Assembly: GCA_036504095.1 (NCBI GenBank)
Contig: DASXVS010000080.1
Location: 62,001 to 126,000, forward strand
DNA from: Armatimonadota bacterium
Lineage (GTDB): Bacteria > Armatimonadota > DTGP01 > JAKQQT01
Length of the DNA: 64,000 bases
Reading direction: 5' to 3'
The notes below the pieces were generated by a model. The model was not told where the DNA came from, did not search any database, and worked only from the letters and a program-made list of their open reading frames with translations. The translations under genes and the position numbers were made by a program. This document shows, in pieces, positions 2,534 through 12,983 of the stretch (position 1 is the first letter of the stretch; the number at the start of each line of letters is the position of its first letter).

Positions 2534-3601
2534 TCACGCTAGTTTTGCGATAACCGCGTCGGCGTATTCCCGGGTGCCGACGGCCGACGGATCGTTGCGG
2601 TCCGCCTTCATATCATAGGTCACCGAGACGCCCTCAGCGATAACCGAAGCCACCGCCCGTTCCATACGATCCGCCGCATCCTTTTCGCCGATGTGCCTCA
2701 GCATCAGCATTCCGCTGAGGATCCCGGCCGTCGGGTTGACCTTGTTCTGGCCTTTGTACTTGGGTGCGCTTCCGTGTGTCGGCTCAAAAACAGCAACGCC
2801 GTCGCCGATGTTCGCGCCCGGCGCAACGCCCAGACCGCCCACCAGGCCGGCGCACAGATCGCTCAGGATGTCGCCGTACAGGTTCTCCGTCACCAGAATA
2901 TCGTAGTTCTCAGGCTTCTGAACGAGTTGCATGCACATCGCGTCCACCAGCACTTCATCATACTCAACGCGGCCCTCGTACTCCTTCGCCACTTCCCGCG
3001 TGCTCCGATAGAACAGGCCATCCGTGAACTTCATGATGTTCGCCTTCGCGATGGCGGTCACCTTGCGGCGTCCATTCGCCAAGGCGTACTCAAAGGCGTA
3101 ACGCGCGATGCGCGTGCTGGCGGCGCCGGAAATGGGCTTGATGGAAATGGCGGAGTGCGGAGCGATGCGTTTCGTGTTGAACGCGCGGATCTGTTCGGCC
3201 TCCGGCGAGTCCACGTCGAACTCCACACCCGCGTACAGGTCTTCGGTGTTCTCGCGCACGAGTACCAGATCCACGTTTTGGTACCGGCTTCGGACGCCGG
3301 GATACCATTTGCAGGGCCGCAGGCAGGCGTAGAGGCCCAACTCCTGACGCAGCGCCACGTTGACGCTCCGAAATCCGGTGCCGATCGGCGTCGTGATCGG
3401 GCCCTTCAGCGCGACCTTGTTCCGCCGGATGCTGTCGAGCGTGTCCTCCGGCAGGGGCGTGCCGGCGGACTCCATCACATCAACGCCCGCGTGACGTACT
3501 TCCCATTCGATCTTCGCGCCGGTCGCGTCGATGACGCGCCGGGTCGCTTCCACGAGTTCTGGTCCGGTGCCGTCACCGGGGATCAGGGTAATTTTGTGCA
3601 T
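2534..3601 (-). CDS. NAD-dependent isocitrate dehydrogenase (isocitrate/isopropylmalate family)
   Basis: A 355-residue beta-decarboxylating dehydrogenase that should oxidise isocitrate to 2-oxoglutarate. The nucleotide end starts [16 protein letters not shown]. The substrate loop [19 protein letters not shown] and [13 protein letters not shown] match NAD-type isocitrate dehydrogenases rather than LeuB. The metal-binding helix is [17 protein letters not shown], followed by [18 protein letters not shown] near the cofactor pocket. Citrate synthase lies two genes upstream, so two of the first three TCA steps cluster here without aconitase. The start MHKITLIPG (3601) fits the family, but there is no clear Shine-Dalgarno: a heptamer repeat array (3604-3687) abuts the start codon. 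Isopropylmalate dehydrogenase is the alternative, judged less likely. Confidence 0.88.
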
Positions 3602-7404: not shown

Positions 7405-10400
7405 CTACCCCAGGCGCATCTCCCAGAGCCGCCACGGCTCGAAAACGCTCATCCAGCCCTTGTCGTTGTGAAACTGGATGCTCAGGCCCATGGTCTGGTA
7501 CATCTGCGGCGCCAGGCCGATATCGGGGTTGTGCGGCATGGCGATCTCGATGACCGTTTTGCCGTCCACAAGCCGCAAAATGCCGTGCGTGCCCTTGCCG
7601 CTCGTTACGCGGACCTCTTTCGGCTCGGCAGATGCATTCCGCGCGTCCAGGCTCATCTCGATCTTGTCTTCAGTGAAGAGTCCGGTGTTCTTCGGCGTCA
7701 ACTGCACATCCATCGTACACGGCTGATCGATGACCGCGGCCAGGTACACGGCGTTTTCGTCCCACTGCAGGTACGTCTCGCCTTTGAAGGGCCCATTCAG
7801 TGTGGAAAGCGGTTCCCACTCGCCGGGGGATATCACACCGTCCAGCACAGGGGTCTTGCGCGGACGCTCCTGCTTCTCCGGGTCCAGCGGCCACGGATCG
7901 CGACCGTCGATCACGCCATCTCCGTCGGTGTCCTTCTTGCGGGGATCGGAGCCGCCAAGGATGCCGGCCATGGCCTCCTGCAGGTCCGTGAGGCCGTCGC
8001 CGTCCGTATCGATCTTGCGCGGGTCGCTTCCCATGCGCTTCTCGTCAAGCGCAAGCTTGGGCTCGTTGTCCGGCACGCCGTCGCCGTCCGCGTCGGCCGT
8101 CAGCTCGATGTGCCCCACCCCATTAGCCGGCAGCCAGAACCAGTCGTTCACCGGCCATTCGCGGAAGATGAACGCGTTGCAGTCGTACTGCCCGCCGAAA
8201 CGGCCGGGGTGGATCGTATAGTCCGGGTGGTTCAGCCAGAACTCCGGATAGCCGGCTCGATCGAAGAAAGCGTCCACCTGGTGGTTGTACTCGTGCGTCA
8301 TCAGCCAGGCGACCATGCCGTCGGCCGCGAAGGCGCTGTAGCCGTACGGCGTCAGACCGCCGCCACCCACCTGCCCGCGGGCTTCCAGTTGGTCTGCCTT
8401 GTAGCCCGGCGTTACCCACGTGCACACAACGCTGTCGTAGTCCTTGATGTGCTTCCCGGCGAAATCCGCGGAGGCCACAATGTCCTTCTTCACTTGGTCC
8501 ACCGGCGGGATGGCGTCCTTGATGTCCGCTTCCGCGTTCTCAATGACGGTGTAGTCAAGATCCAGGTTGACCTTGAAGTGCGTGTTGCGAAGGTAGAACT
8601 CCTTCGCGCGGGCCATCATACGCGGGATTCGATCGCCAAGTTGCTCGCGCGGCATCGCGTACTTCTCGCCTTTATTACCCGTCTTCAGGTAGATCGCAAC
8701 GATGATCTTCAGCGTCACGTACTGCATCTGGCCTTTGGGCGGCGCTGACAGGAACGAGTACTGCTTGGAGCCGGGCTCGGGTGGGAAGGTCCGCAACGGC
8801 GGCGAGATGTGGTACTTGTAGACCGAGTTCTGCTTGAGTCCGTTCAGGTCTATCCGGACGCTGCCGTCCGGCCCTGGTATGGCGTTGTACGGGTTGATGA
8901 GAACTTTGCCCTCGGGATCGGCGTAACCCAGGAATGCACGACCGGGCGCCTCGGTCTTCCAAGTAATGGTTGCCGAATCGCCGGCGACTTCCACGTGCGG
9001 TCTCGGCTCCGGTACGTCTGAAGGAATCACCACGATGCGGTTGTGGTCTGAATCGGCGAGGAAGATGGTGTCGTCCGGGCCGATGGCTATCCCGCCTGGC
9101 TGTCCGATGCCGCCGATGCTGAAGCCGGCGAAACTCGCCACGCGGTCGCCCTTCTGGTCGATCACTCGCACACAGCCGCCGCTTTCGTAATAGCCGAGGT
9201 TGCCGAGGTGGACGATCTGGTTCTTGCTGTTCACCGCCAGCGATTTCGGAGCCAGCCAGCCGGGGATGGAGCCGGCAGGTTCGAGGGCCATCTCGCGGGA
9301 CCCGTTACGCAGAGCGAGGATGCGGATCGTATTGTCTGCGGCGTCCGCGACCAGCACGCGACCGGCCGGGTCCATATACAGGCCACGCGCGTCCTTGAAC
9401 GGGCCAAGGCTGCTTCCGCCGCGCCCATTCGCATCGCGAACGCTGATGCTTGTAGCGGTCGCCACGATGAAGCCGCTCAGGTCACGGGCTGGCCACGAGC
9501 CCAGTGTGCCGGCATCCATCCGGGCGCTCTCGACCAGCAGGAAATCGCGCGCATCGGTATCAGCGGGGACGTTTTTGACGAACTTGCCCGAATCATCAAA
9601 CATAGCCAGCCGGTTCAGCGCGCGGTCAAGGACCCAGGTGTTCTTGTGGCCGTCGATACGGATGGGGCCGGGATCGAGAACCTGCCCTACCCCGCGTCCG
9701 CGCGGAGCAAATGAGCGCAATATCTTGCCGGCTTTTACGTCCATTACCGCAACGGTGTCTTTGCCGCGGTGACTCACATACAGGAGGCCTTCCGGTCCAA
9801 AGGCCAGCGATTGTGGCGCGTTGAATGGCTCGATGATCTTGAGACCCTCGGCTTCCGCCGCGCTGAGGCCGTATCGGCGTTCGTAGTTCGTAAACGCATT
9901 GGCTAGAGAGGATTCAATACCTACAAAGCCATCCATGAAATGCAGGTCGGCGTTCTTTCCGACAACCTTGCCATCCAGGAGGACGTTGTACTTGCCGAGA
10001 TCGCTGTCTACCGCCACGGCCAAGGTGTGCCACTCGTTCGCCGCGATGGCGGTGTTGTAGATGCCGGTCTGCTGGAAGTCGCCCTTAGAGTCCTCGTAGC
10101 CCCAGATGACGAATTCCGGATCCACGCGCACCATCTGGCAGTTGAAACGGTTATCGCGACTGCTCATGTTCCAGAACAGACCCCCTCCGGCAGGGCCTCC
10201 CAGCGATTTCGTGCGAACCGAGATCACGTACTGCCCGGTTGGCTTGTCGTCCATCGACGCGCCCTGGTCATACTGCTCGGTACCCGTCTGGCGATACTCG
10301 CCATCCTGGATGACCCAGGTACCCAGGAACGGTTTCCACGTCGGCGAGCCGTTACTCCCCGCCGCATATTTGCTGAAGTCGTCGTGAAAGGTGGTCTGGG

Positions 10401-10542
10401 CGAATGCTGCGGTTGCAATGGCAAAGGCAAACAGCAGGACTGCTACCTTTCGCCCTACCCCGGCTCGCTTAGGCTCGCCACCCCTCCCTGAAGGGAGGGG
10501 TTCCCAGTTTGGTTGGCTGTGGGGGTTCCGTTTCGTAGTCAT
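7405..10542 (-). CDS. Secreted NHL-propeller / metallopeptidase-like / CBM9-like protein
   Basis: A 1045-residue exported protein. Order of modules: signal-peptide core at about 32-48; a concanavalin-like (3-keto-disaccharide hydrolase type) domain 50-220; NHL beta-propeller 230-510 (repeats such as ADSDHNRIVVI); a fibronectin-like domain 515-580; a metallopeptidase-like domain 605-800 with HEYNH at 750-754; thrombospondin type 3 calcium repeats 810-880 (DTDGDGLTDLQEAM); and a CBM9-like domain to the end. It should act outside the cell on a carbohydrate- or protein-rich substrate; the true substrate is unknown. Residues 14-31 are encoded by one arm of the DUF559 element, so the N-terminus has been rewritten by an insertion. 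The ATG overlaps the DUF559 stop and has AGGAG before it. Confidence 0.8.
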   Translation of the reverse strand: MTTKRNPHSQPNWEPLPSGRGGEPKRAGVGRKVAVLLFAFAIATAAFAQTTFHDDFSKYAAGSNGSPTWKPFLGTWVIQDGEYRQTGTEQYDQGASMDDKPTGQYVISVRTKSLGGPAGGGLFWNMSSRDNRFNCQMVRVDPEFVIWGYEDSKGDFQQTGIYNTAIAANEWHTLAVAVDSDLGKYNVLLDGKVVGKNADLHFMDGFVGIESSLANAFTNYERRYGLSAAEAEGLKIIEPFNAPQSLAFGPEGLLYVSHRGKDTVAVMDVKAGKILRSFAPRGRGVGQVLDPGPIRIDGHKNTWVLDRALNRLAMFDDSGKFVKNVPADTDARDFLLVESARMDAGTLGSWPARDLSGFIVATATSISVRDANGRGGSSLGPFKDARGLYMDPAGRVLVADAADNTIRILALRNGSREMALEPAGSIPGWLAPKSLAVNSKNQIVHLGNLGYYESGGCVRVIDQKGDRVASFAGFSIGGIGQPGGIAIGPDDTIFLADSDHNRIVVIPSDVPEPRPHVEVAGDSATITWKTEAPGRAFLGYADPEGKVLINPYNAIPGPDGSVRIDLNGLKQNSVYKYHISPPLRTFPPEPGSKQYSFLSAPPKGQMQYVTLKIIVAIYLKTGNKGEKYAMPREQLGDRIPRMMARAKEFYLRNTHFKVNLDLDYTVIENAEADIKDAIPPVDQVKKDIVASADFAGKHIKDYDSVVCTWVTPGYKADQLEARGQVGGGGLTPYGYSAFAADGMVAWLMTHEYNHQVDAFFDRAGYPEFWLNHPDYTIHPGRFGGQYDCNAFIFREWPVNDWFWLPANGVGHIELTADADGDGVPDNEPKLALDEKRMGSDPRKIDTDGDGLTDLQEAMAGILGGSDPRKKDTDGDGVIDGRDPWPLDPEKQERPRKTPVLDGVISPGEWEPLSTLNGPFKGETYLQWDENAVYLAAVIDQPCTMDVQLTPKNTGLFTEDKIEMSLDARNASAEPKEVRVTSGKGTHGILRLVDGKTVIEIAMPHNPDIGLAPQMYQTMGLSIQFHNDKGWMSVFEPWRLWEMRLG
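10452..10503. repeat. Inverted repeat arm 1 of the DUF559 element
   Basis: A 52-bp segment that is the exact reverse complement of 10973-11024. It contains the palindrome CCCCTCCCTGAAGGGAGGGG and a direct repeat of GGCTCGC. It lies inside the first codons of the 1045-residue protein gene and is translated there. Confidence 0.95.
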
Positions 10543-10970
10543 TCTTTGATATCTCCTATGAGCCCAGTACGGGTACGGCCGGTATCCGAGATGATCCCCA
10601 GCACGTGAGTGATACGATTCTGTATGTCCTCATTAGTGAAGCGAAGGACGAGCAACCCTCGGGATTCCATGACCGCATCCCGCTGGGCGTCGGAGTCTCG
10701 CTGGGTTTCATGGATCGGCCCATCAACTTCAACAACCAAGCCTGCGGTATGGCAATAGAAATCAGCGATGAAACCGTCGATCACCTGTTGTCGTCGGAAG
10801 TGCAGTCCGGCACATTGGTTCGAGCGGACATTTTGCCATAGGACCGCTTCCGCCGACGTCGGCGCTTGCCGCATTCTAACGGCCAACACCTGCTTTTCCG
10901 CACTATGACCTCCCGTAACGATACCTCTGCGATCAATATCGTTGTCCAAAATCAGAGAACCCTCCAACAC
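10539..10970 (-). CDS. DUF559 endonuclease-domain protein (Vsr-like fold)
   Basis: A 143-residue protein of the DUF559 family, related to very-short-patch-repair endonucleases in the PD-(D/E)XK superfamily. Family marks are PTSAEAVLWQNVRSNQCAG, LHFRRQQVIDGFIADFYC with the acidic residue of the active site, VVEVDGPIHETQ, and RDAVMESRGLLVLRFTNEDI. It probably binds and nicks or cuts DNA; the target is not known. The GTG start at 10970 is preceded by GGGAGGGG contributed by the inverted repeat itself, so the repeat may supply the ribosome binding site. A later ATG at 10874 would delete the N-terminal 32 residues and is possible. The stop codon overlaps the start of the downstream gene (ATGA). 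Confidence 0.85.
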   Translation of the reverse strand: MLEGSLILDNDIDRRGIVTGGHSAEKQVLAVRMRQAPTSAEAVLWQNVRSNQCAGLHFRRQQVIDGFIADFYCHTAGLVVEVDGPIHETQRDSDAQRDAVMESRGLLVLRFTNEDIQNRITHVLGIISDTGRTRTGLIGDIKE

Positions 10971-10972
10971 GC

Positions 10973-11024
10973 GAACCCCTCCCTTCAGGGAGGGGTGGCG
11001 AGCCTAAGCGAGCCGGGGTAGGGC
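10973..11024. repeat. Inverted repeat arm 2 of the DUF559 element
   Basis: Exact reverse complement of 10452-10503 over 52 bp. It begins 3 bp after the DUF559 start codon and ends 2 bp before the stop codon of the neighbouring 622-residue protein gene. Confidence 0.95.
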
Positions 11025-11026
11025 CG

Positions 11027-12895
11027 TCAATAATCGCGATGCAGTTCTACCGTCATCAGGCGCTGCGGCTCGAATAGCGTGAATACCTGTTTCCCGCCCG
11101 GCAGTCTGGCGCCCAGTTTCACGCCCATACGCTTGCCGGAGTACAGCCGAAGGCCCGTCTTGTAGTTCATCGGGATGGCGGCTTCCAGCACGTACGCGCC
11201 GCCCGTCTGCGCGGCAACGGCACTGATGTCGGATGCCTTGACGATGTCCTTGCTCTGGTTGAGATACGGATTCGGGTCCTTTGTGGGGTCGAAGACCGAC
11301 CAGTCCCATATCACGGAGGAGATCACCGGCTCTGTCGCTCCGGCGGCGGGGGCGGCGATCACCATCCGGTAGTTATCCGTCCCGGCAAACCAACCATCGT
11401 TCATCGCGTCGATGTCGAAAACCAGGTCGGCAGGCGCGGAAGAGCGCATCGAGACGTAAAGATACTGGTCGTCCCATTCCAGGCCGAACTCCGCCTTCAC
11501 CTTGGTTCCACTGGCGTCACTCAGGTTCGCAGACATGCCCATCGTCTGCCATTCGCCCTTATCCCACCTGCCGTCAAGAACCGGTGTGGCGAAGCGGCGC
11601 AGCGTCTGGGCAGGGTACGACGGATACGGATCGGCGCCGTCAGGGATGCCGTCACCGTCGGTGTCGGGATTGCGAGGATCAGGCGGTTTCACGCCGGAGG
11701 CCATCTCTTCGTTGAGACCTGCATACACGCCGGAGGTCACGGAGTATTCGTCAAGGTCGCTCAAGCCATCCGAGTCCGTATCGGCCTTCTTCGGATCGCT
11801 GTGGAAGCGCTTCTCGTCGATAGGAAGCGTTGGGTCGTCGTCCGCAAGCCCGTCGCTGTCCGTGTCCTTGCTCAGGTGACGGGTGCCGAACACAAGGTTT
11901 GCCCAGTTGTCGCGCGGAAAATGCGAGAGAAGCCAGTAATTGCAGTCCCAGTGTTCGCCGAACGCGCCGACGTCCGTAATGGGGTCCGGGTGATTGAACG
12001 CAAGACTCGGGTATCCGGAGTAATCGGCCATGCTGTCCAACTGGTGCCCGAATTCGTGCGTCACGGTCCACCGGATGTCCGCGCGGTGGCCGAAATTGAT
12101 CATCGTGTACGGCGTTCGCGCAACGTTCCACGGTGCGTCCCACCCGTACGTGCCGCCCGAATGCGCCTGGCCGCGATACACCTTGGCTTTGGCTTCCGGA
12201 CTGATGCCCTCGCCCCAGCCAAACATGAAGACCACTCCGGCGTAATCGCCGACCTTTTTGCCCTTTTCCTTAAGCACACGGGCCATCGACGCCTCGAAGG
12301 CGCCCGTCACGTCACCCGCATCCAGGGACGGCCGATTACCTATGTCCGTATTCTCGGCAGAAATATCCCAGGTGAGATTCAGCCTGCCGTGCGTCGCGTG
12401 GAAGTAGAACGAACGCACATCCTCAAGCTGCTTGCGGATAAGCTCGAGATCATCGTTCGTAAGGTTCTTCGAAACGCCGGCCGGCAAGCCGCCGGCGGGC
12501 GCGTCGGAGTAGTGGATGGGGCTGTAGACGACGGCCAGAAGCGGCAGGGTCTCGGTTTCCAGTGTGCCTTTGGGCGGCAGGGTGGCGGTGAGTTGCTGCC
12601 GCGAGTGCTCGGCGTCACCCTGCGGGCTGAGGATGAACCGGGTTTCCGTGTTCCCTTTGAGACCGGTAGCCTCGGCGCGATAGTCGTCCCCATTCTTGAC
12701 CGCCGCAATGGTCTCGTGCGGTTCCTCACCCTGCCAAATCTCAACGTTCCCGGCTTCGGCGCGCGTGCTGTGCCATCGGAAATTCAAAGTGGACGCGTTG
12801 GGCCGGGTGATCGTAACCTCGCCTGGGTGTGAAGGTGAAGCGGCAAGCGAAATGCCCGTCGCAAAGAGACCGACGAACGTGCAAATGCGTTTCAT
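11027..12895 (-). CDS. Secreted metallopeptidase-like protein with TSP3 repeats and CBM9-like domain
   Basis: A 622-residue exported protein and shorter relative of the 1045-residue neighbour. A signal peptide covers about 1-20 (ICTFVGLFATGISLAAS). A beta-rich domain follows to about 110, then a metallopeptidase-like domain 115-340 with HEFGHQLDS at 280-288, whose HExxH suggests zinc. Thrombospondin type 3 repeats occupy about 345-430 (KADTDSDGLSDLDEYS; RNPDTDGDGIPDGADPYP). A CBM9-like domain (TPVLDGRWDKGEWQTMGMS) fills 440-615. The start MKRICTF at 12895 has AAAGG six bases before it. It probably degrades or remodels extracellular material; peptidase activity is inferred only from the motif. 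It likely once preceded the 1045-residue gene directly, before the DUF559 element came between them. Confidence 0.8.
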   Translation of the reverse strand: MKRICTFVGLFATGISLAASPSHPGEVTITRPNASTLNFRWHSTRAEAGNVEIWQGEEPHETIAAVKNGDDYRAEATGLKGNTETRFILSPQGDAEHSRQQLTATLPPKGTLETETLPLLAVVYSPIHYSDAPAGGLPAGVSKNLTNDDLELIRKQLEDVRSFYFHATHGRLNLTWDISAENTDIGNRPSLDAGDVTGAFEASMARVLKEKGKKVGDYAGVVFMFGWGEGISPEAKAKVYRGQAHSGGTYGWDAPWNVARTPYTMINFGHRADIRWTVTHEFGHQLDSMADYSGYPSLAFNHPDPITDVGAFGEHWDCNYWLLSHFPRDNWANLVFGTRHLSKDTDSDGLADDDPTLPIDEKRFHSDPKKADTDSDGLSDLDEYSVTSGVYAGLNEEMASGVKPPDPRNPDTDGDGIPDGADPYPSYPAQTLRRFATPVLDGRWDKGEWQTMGMSANLSDASGTKVKAEFGLEWDDQYLYVSMRSSAPADLVFDIDAMNDGWFAGTDNYRMVIAAPAAGATEPVISSVIWDWSVFDPTKDPNPYLNQSKDIVKASDISAVAAQTGGAYVLEAAIPMNYKTGLRLYSGKRMGVKLGARLPGGKQVFTLFEPQRLMTVELHRDY

Positions 12896-12983
12896 ACGCA
12901 ACCTTTCAGTTGTGAGGTCGCCCGTCTGGCGGCCAACTCGCGGGACGCGGTGCTCTATCCGTGCAGATACGGCACAACCTCTT

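Follow-up and report, generated by a model that had tools for sequence, protein, structure and literature searches.

Exact inverted hairpin repeats around a DUF559 nuclease gene in an Armatimonadota genome: a candidate family of small mobile elements

The DNA analysed here, referred to as the window, is a stretch of 64,000 nt from an Armatimonadota bacterium (GenBank assembly GCA_036504095.1, contig DASXVS010000080.1, positions 62,001 to 126,000). At 10452-11024 (minus strand) the window contains a 573 bp element, which consists of a DUF559 gene between two arms, one located 3′ of the gene at 10452-10503 (plus strand) and the other 5′ of it at 10973-11024 (minus strand). A previous reading made from the letters alone, here called the sequence-only reading, had noted that the arms are exact inverse copies. 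We confirmed that they are reverse complements, exact over 52 bp, and found that a looser inverted match reaches 61 bp at 93 %. The match is absent from shuffled windows and its chance expectation is zero. The arm 3′ of the gene begins with the terminus GCCCTACCCC, followed by the 18-nt sequence GGCTCGCTTAGGCTCGCC and the main hairpin, ACCCCTCCC-TGAA-GGGAGGGGT, at 10480-10501, which has a polypyrimidine 5′ arm. In the second arm, the hairpin ACCCCTCCC-TTCA-GGGAGGGGT is at 10975-10996. What had been described as a palindrome in each arm is a hairpin with a 4-nt loop, and not a perfect palindrome. Rfam returned no match near threshold at the arms. The element is like insertion sequences and MITEs in having inverted termini, here 52 bp and exact, and gene-less derivatives. 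However, the window copy does not include a DDE or HUH transposase, and there is no target-site duplication in its immediate flanks.

The DUF559 ORF (10539-10970, minus strand) encodes 143 aa when read from GTG 10970 and matches Pfam PF04480 with 109.9 bits (cut-off 20.6). The GTG had been taken as the start codon and the arm as the donor of the ribosome site. However, the family N-termini align with TTG 10949, which is probably the correct start, and the GGAGGG that precedes this TTG falls between the arm and the gene. Since this GGAGGG is located outside the arm, the arm probably does not serve as the ribosome site. The G+C content of the gene is 54 %, compared with 62 % for the whole window. 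The DUF559 stop codon overlaps the ATG start of the downstream gene (7405-10542, minus strand; ATGA), which encodes an NHL-repeat protein with an N-terminus ('EPLPSGRGGEPKRAGVG') that is translated from the arm. The statement that the arms enclose one DUF559 gene and nothing else is therefore not wholly exact, although the DUF559 ORF is a single one. The element is placed directly past the stop codon of the gene at 12901-11027 (minus strand) and in the 5′ end of the NHL-repeat protein gene, a neighbour that lies outside the element and is affected by the insertion. The three neighbours examined encode an NHL-repeat protein, a CBM9-like protein and a transporter component. The genes at 7405-10542 and 11027-12901 are related to one another (35 % identity over part), and the insertion thus sits between likely tandem paralogues. 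An empty site in relatives had been anticipated, but for this insertion none was found, nor was any close relative that carries both flanking genes.

The window protein is predicted to be a single-domain Vsr-like PD-(D/E)XK nuclease with catalytic-type residues, based on profile matches and on a structure model with a mean pLDDT of 80. Residues E41, D70, E81, D83 and H87 are invariant in an alignment of 23 DUF559 homologues. The profile matches were to DUF559 and, weakly, to MTES_1575, the fold is PD-(D/E)XK, and neither profile nor fold indicated a protein of the HUH/Y1 transposase type found in RAYT/REPIN systems. In PADLOC, PHROGs and NCBIfam, the generic DUF559 model was the sole hit apart from weak matches. 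Using Foldseek, the model matched 3hrl (E 2.2e-6), the restriction enzyme PvuRts1I and the homing endonuclease I-Bth0305I, and matched Vsr weakly. For I-Bth0305I (3r3p), the profile E value was 0.0022 and the Foldseek E value 1e-3, with a TM-score of 0.79 on the target. Though similar to I-Bth0305I and Vsr in fold and catalytic region, the window gene is free-standing between hairpins, and the window contains no intron, intein or adjacent cytosine methyltransferase. A further DUF559 family member, Caulobacter VsrA, is reported to be strictly required for the DNA damage response in cells without a solitary cytosine methyltransferase (PMC12907096). VsrA is of the same family and is reported to cause DNA damage when methylation is absent, but it was studied there as a mismatch-repair-type enzyme, and the string 'palindrom' is not found in that paper.

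The window hairpin has three occurrences in the 4.68 Mb genome, namely the two arms and a solo arm that is identical to the window arm at 47 of 52 positions. The solo arm (G000:C42:199-250 region) is near the start of contig C42, approximately 330 bp from another DUF559 gene, and begins GACCTATCCC, close to the general terminus GACCTAACCC. All four of the DUF559 genes in this genome have flanking G+C-rich palindromes, which are of three sequence types. The window arm type also recurs in three other genomes (G014, G096 and G151), where none of the arms adjoin the DUF559 genes of those genomes, indicating that arms and genes reassort or that genes have been lost. Hence, the arms extend beyond the window copy and the other DUF559 genes of the genome are flanked by repeats, as the sequence-only reading would have it. 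Gene-less inverted doublets are dispersed in Dolichospermum, in genome G043 and in Sinorhizobium; of the window's own arm type, the window's genome has a single solo copy.

The DUF559 loci surveyed came from 61 genomes of the phylum to which the window belongs and, beyond it, from named genomes in several further phyla. Flanking inverted repeats with a score of at least 18 were present at 35 of 74 DUF559 loci, while the 1,439 control windows taken from these loci had none. When hairpins were defined by a C/T-rich 5′ arm and a stem of at least 8, C/T hairpins were found on both sides of 43 of the 86 distinct DUF559 loci, compared with 0.05 % of 2,076 control windows (0.02 loci expected). The remainder includes 21 loci, about a quarter of the 86, that are in other genomes and have hairpins on neither side, but every DUF559 gene of the window's genome is flanked by palindromes. 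The arms flanking DUF559 genes in many phyla consist of a C/T-rich hairpin and a GACCTAACCC-like tail, and the varied hairpins have a common plan, namely ACCT(A/C)ACCCCC, a short spacer, CCCCYYYCC, a loop and the complement. Loci with tails directed outward and loci with tails directed inward are about equally frequent. The suggestion that arm sequence tracks the DUF559 phylogeny was borne out only weakly (Mantel r 0.135, p 0.04). No report of a nuclease-palindrome association of this kind was found in the open-access literature, though an earlier one in subscription journals or preprints is possible.

As a specificity control, a second small PD-(D/E)XK family, GxxExxY (PF13366, PDDEXK_3), was examined in the same 61 genomes (loci L147-L175). 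DUF559-type C/T hairpins were found at 0 of 26 GxxExxY loci. However, 16 of the 26 are flanked by inverted repeats, mostly of ACCACAGAG/CACAGAGG units, which are a different family from the C/T hairpins. The genome that includes the window has GxxExxY loci at C2:78802-79152 (L153) and C63:22807-23154 (L171). Because the GxxExxY loci have their own, different repeat, the control points to a second, independent nuclease-repeat partnership.

C/T hairpins without a gene form inverted doublets of approximately 90-130 bp that are REPIN-like and number up to hundreds per genome. In many relatives the hairpin counts are above the reversed control, and there are more hairpins in genomes with a full-length DUF559 gene (p 0.015). 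Genome G043 (97 % complete; L177-L196) has 664 C/T hairpin matches, largely in inverted doublets, and a full-length DUF559 gene was not found in it. The doublet flanking DUF559 in Sinorhizobium matches at 39 places in its own replicon and at 1,159 in 257 plasmid records, and the plasmid collection yielded no matching counterpart as an empty site. The doublets beside DUF559 in Sinorhizobium meliloti CP090106.1 (L231) presumably resemble the rhizobial RIME1 intergenic element. The arrangement is like that of RAYT/TnpA_REP and REP/REPIN (PMC3116915, PMC8266576), in that one gene lies between palindromic repeats in inverted orientation and other sites hold many inverted doublets that lack the gene. 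However, DUF559 is a PD-(D/E)XK nuclease and RAYT is an HUH/Y1 transposase, and the C/T-rich hairpins of DUF559 carry a GACCTAACCC-like tail.

When 16 Dolichospermum genomes were searched using one DUF559 locus as the query, the 612-bp element was found in five other genomes, with matches of up to 614 bp, 89-98 % identity and mostly unrelated flanks. The element is complete in G074 and G077, where both flanks are unrelated to those of the query, and truncated at one end in G078 and G068. In G076 the right flank is common with the query and the left flank is different, and in G065 and G073 the query's right flank is present without the element. Each end of the element is a doublet of approximately 90 bp that is also found alone at many sites. 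In cyanobacterial plasmids, DUF559 elements interrupt methyltransferase genes that are uninterrupted in relatives. In Synechocystis B12 the affected genes are one for PglX (L088) and a DUF1156 gene (L087), and in Pseudanabaena a PglX gene is interrupted in frame (L090). The PglX site occupied by the element in L088 carries a gene-less doublet in Pseudanabaena (L095) and has neither in Planktothrix (L096), with junctions that are approximate as the genera have diverged. These comparisons establish, at the level of sequence, both the linkage of arms to gene and the past movement of DUF559 elements. In L090, the element at 2868-3472 is in frame in PglX just before the DPACGSGHF motif, and the result is one long ORF annotated as a DUF559 protein.

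An intrastrand triplex motif, TM_ECO, with 23 copies in Escherichia coli K-12, including five inverted pairs, was described by Holder et al. in 2015 (PMC4666352). The motif is frequent in certain enterobacteria and cyanobacteria, and activities for genetic mobility were never found around it (PMC4666352). It is like the DUF559 arms in its hairpin-plus-tail plan (e.g. CCCTCGCCCCTCTGGGGAGAGGGTTAGGGTGAGGGG), its inverted doublets and its abundance in cyanobacteria and enterobacteria. However, no mobility gene was found by Holder et al., and here the motif type is tied to DUF559; moreover, the window arm misses the strict pattern. The consensus CCCTCNCCCN3-6GGGNGAGGGN3GGGNGAGGG describes the E. 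coli copy beside the DUF559 gene ycjD and has no match in the window, or in Dolichospermum, where the doublet differs. ycjD is at 1351407-1351760 and TM_ECO no. 9 is at 1351205-1351239, 167 bp past its 3′ end. The chance of a TM_ECO copy within 200 bp of one pre-specified gene is near 0.3 %, as estimated for 18 independent sites in 4.64 Mb. A degenerate second hairpin extends over the 3′ end of ycjD. The hairpin on the 5′ side is different and A+T-richer, and the E. coli case is thus one-sided.

A survey of 5,426 complete E. coli genomes showed ycjD in 3,366. O157 and ST131 strains were considered as a source of an empty ycjD site, but the fabI side is followed by an efflux operon and this is not a simple empty site. 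In two E. coli loci (L144 and L145), a TetR regulator and efflux genes are found past fabI, where K-12 has ycjD. Strains without a triplex-motif doublet were also rejected as empty sites, as one represents a doublet collapsed to a single hairpin and the others are rearranged. Between alx and sstT (L234 versus L236), the K-12 doublet is represented by a single hairpin in JJ2434, which fits a deletion between repeats.

We consider it rather probable that the window holds one copy of a mobile element, small and autonomous, whose DUF559 nuclease spreads its cognate hairpins. A mobile element is well supported by the association of DUF559 with arms in many phyla, the unrelated sites, the intact versions of interrupted genes, the gene-less arms and the relation to I-Bth0305I. 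Also counted for this reading are the absence of C/T hairpins at GxxExxY loci, the recurrence of the Sinorhizobium doublet, the palindromes at all four DUF559 genes of the window's genome, the invariant catalytic-type residues, the position of ycjD 167 bp from TM_ECO no. 9, the higher hairpin numbers in genomes with full-length DUF559 and the reported need for Caulobacter VsrA in the DNA damage response in vivo (PMC12907096). Counted against it are the hairpin-rich genomes without full-length DUF559 (664 copies in G043), the quarter or so of DUF559 loci without hairpins, the weak arm-protein co-phylogeny, and the window-type arms of G014, G096 and G151 away from DUF559 genes. In addition, neither a target-site duplication nor a clean empty site was found for the window insertion, and the gene could be carried passively by homologous recombination from hairpin to hairpin. 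VsrA, which is the DUF559 protein studied best, has been connected with methylation rather than mobility. The sequence-only reading had proposed a minimal mobile element spread by a nuclease and not a transposase. A mobile DUF559 element partnered with a repeat is well supported; that the nuclease is the mover of the hairpins, with the repeat as its recognition site, is what we infer, together with the cutting chemistry. Most likely, the DUF559 nuclease would recognise its cognate hairpin or tail and cut it, either at the ends of the element or at target sites. Repair or strand transfer would then copy the element, or just a gene-less arm doublet, into the break. The hairpins would then multiply as REPIN-like doublets and the gene-bearing copy would stay rare. 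Such a system would be a counterpart of RAYT/REPIN in which a PD-(D/E)XK nuclease replaces the HUH transposase.

It appears unlikely that the DUF559 genes are passengers, with the hairpins mobilised by something else and the genes either carried by homologous recombination or lodged in hairpin-rich intergenic hot spots. Hairpins do exceed the genes in number, by tens to hundreds, and are retained in genomes that lack DUF559, and the E. coli doublet that apparently collapsed to one hairpin between direct repeats indicates recombination at such sites. However, the association is specific to DUF559 (0/26 for GxxExxY in the same genomes) and is seen across many phyla, in which the hairpin sequences differ, and the unit that carries the gene is found repeatedly as a 612-bp block with sharp boundaries. 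A role in surveillance or repair, with DUF559 a Vsr-like repair or restriction nuclease acting on triplex or hairpin structures or on mismatches, and the hairpins regulatory or target sites and not ends, is improbable. It would suit the Vsr-like fold, the tie of Caulobacter VsrA to ScmA methylation and the location of some DUF559 copies among BREX or DUF1156 methyltransferase genes. However, three such copies lie within methyltransferase genes of which relatives have intact versions, and this argues for insertion and not an operon. Repair would also leave unexplained the gene-less doublets that share both termini and site with the element. The spread of gene-less doublets is not explained by classical homing, in which DUF559 cuts a conserved target (e.g. 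in pglX), the element is copied by gap repair and the hairpins are structural caps or terminators. Sequence and fold similarity to I-Bth0305I is in keeping with homing, as is the finding that a doublet in one genus and an element with the gene in another occupy the same position in PglX, but most insertions are in unrelated intergenic places and we regard it as very improbable.

C/T-rich hairpin doublets are common dispersed bacterial repeats, and the partnership with DUF559 names a candidate mobiliser. If an autonomous element spread by its nuclease is the correct reading, a PD-(D/E)XK nuclease does the job of the RAYT transposase, and does so in two instances should the GxxExxY partnership also hold. 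A large family for which 'DUF559' is the only annotation would then acquire a role. DUF559-hairpin elements may be the source of common scattered hairpin repeats, including the one in E. coli. More tentatively, we raise the possibility that prokaryotes have a new class of mobile DNA, with inverted-repeat families that are spread by their own small single-domain nucleases rather than by transposases (C/T-rich hairpins by DUF559 and, independently, CACAGAGG-type repeats by GxxExxY). Abundant orphan palindromes, the E. coli triplex motifs among them, would then have in these nucleases the mobilisers that have been missing.

Among the DUF559 loci outside the window's phylum, a hairpin-bearing DUF559 gene lies between sufB and sufC in Sphingomonas parapaucimobilis (NZ_CP155753.1; L232). 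The DUF559 gene of Neisseria gonorrhoeae, which is probably the source of the solved structure 3hrl, has related repeats on both sides.
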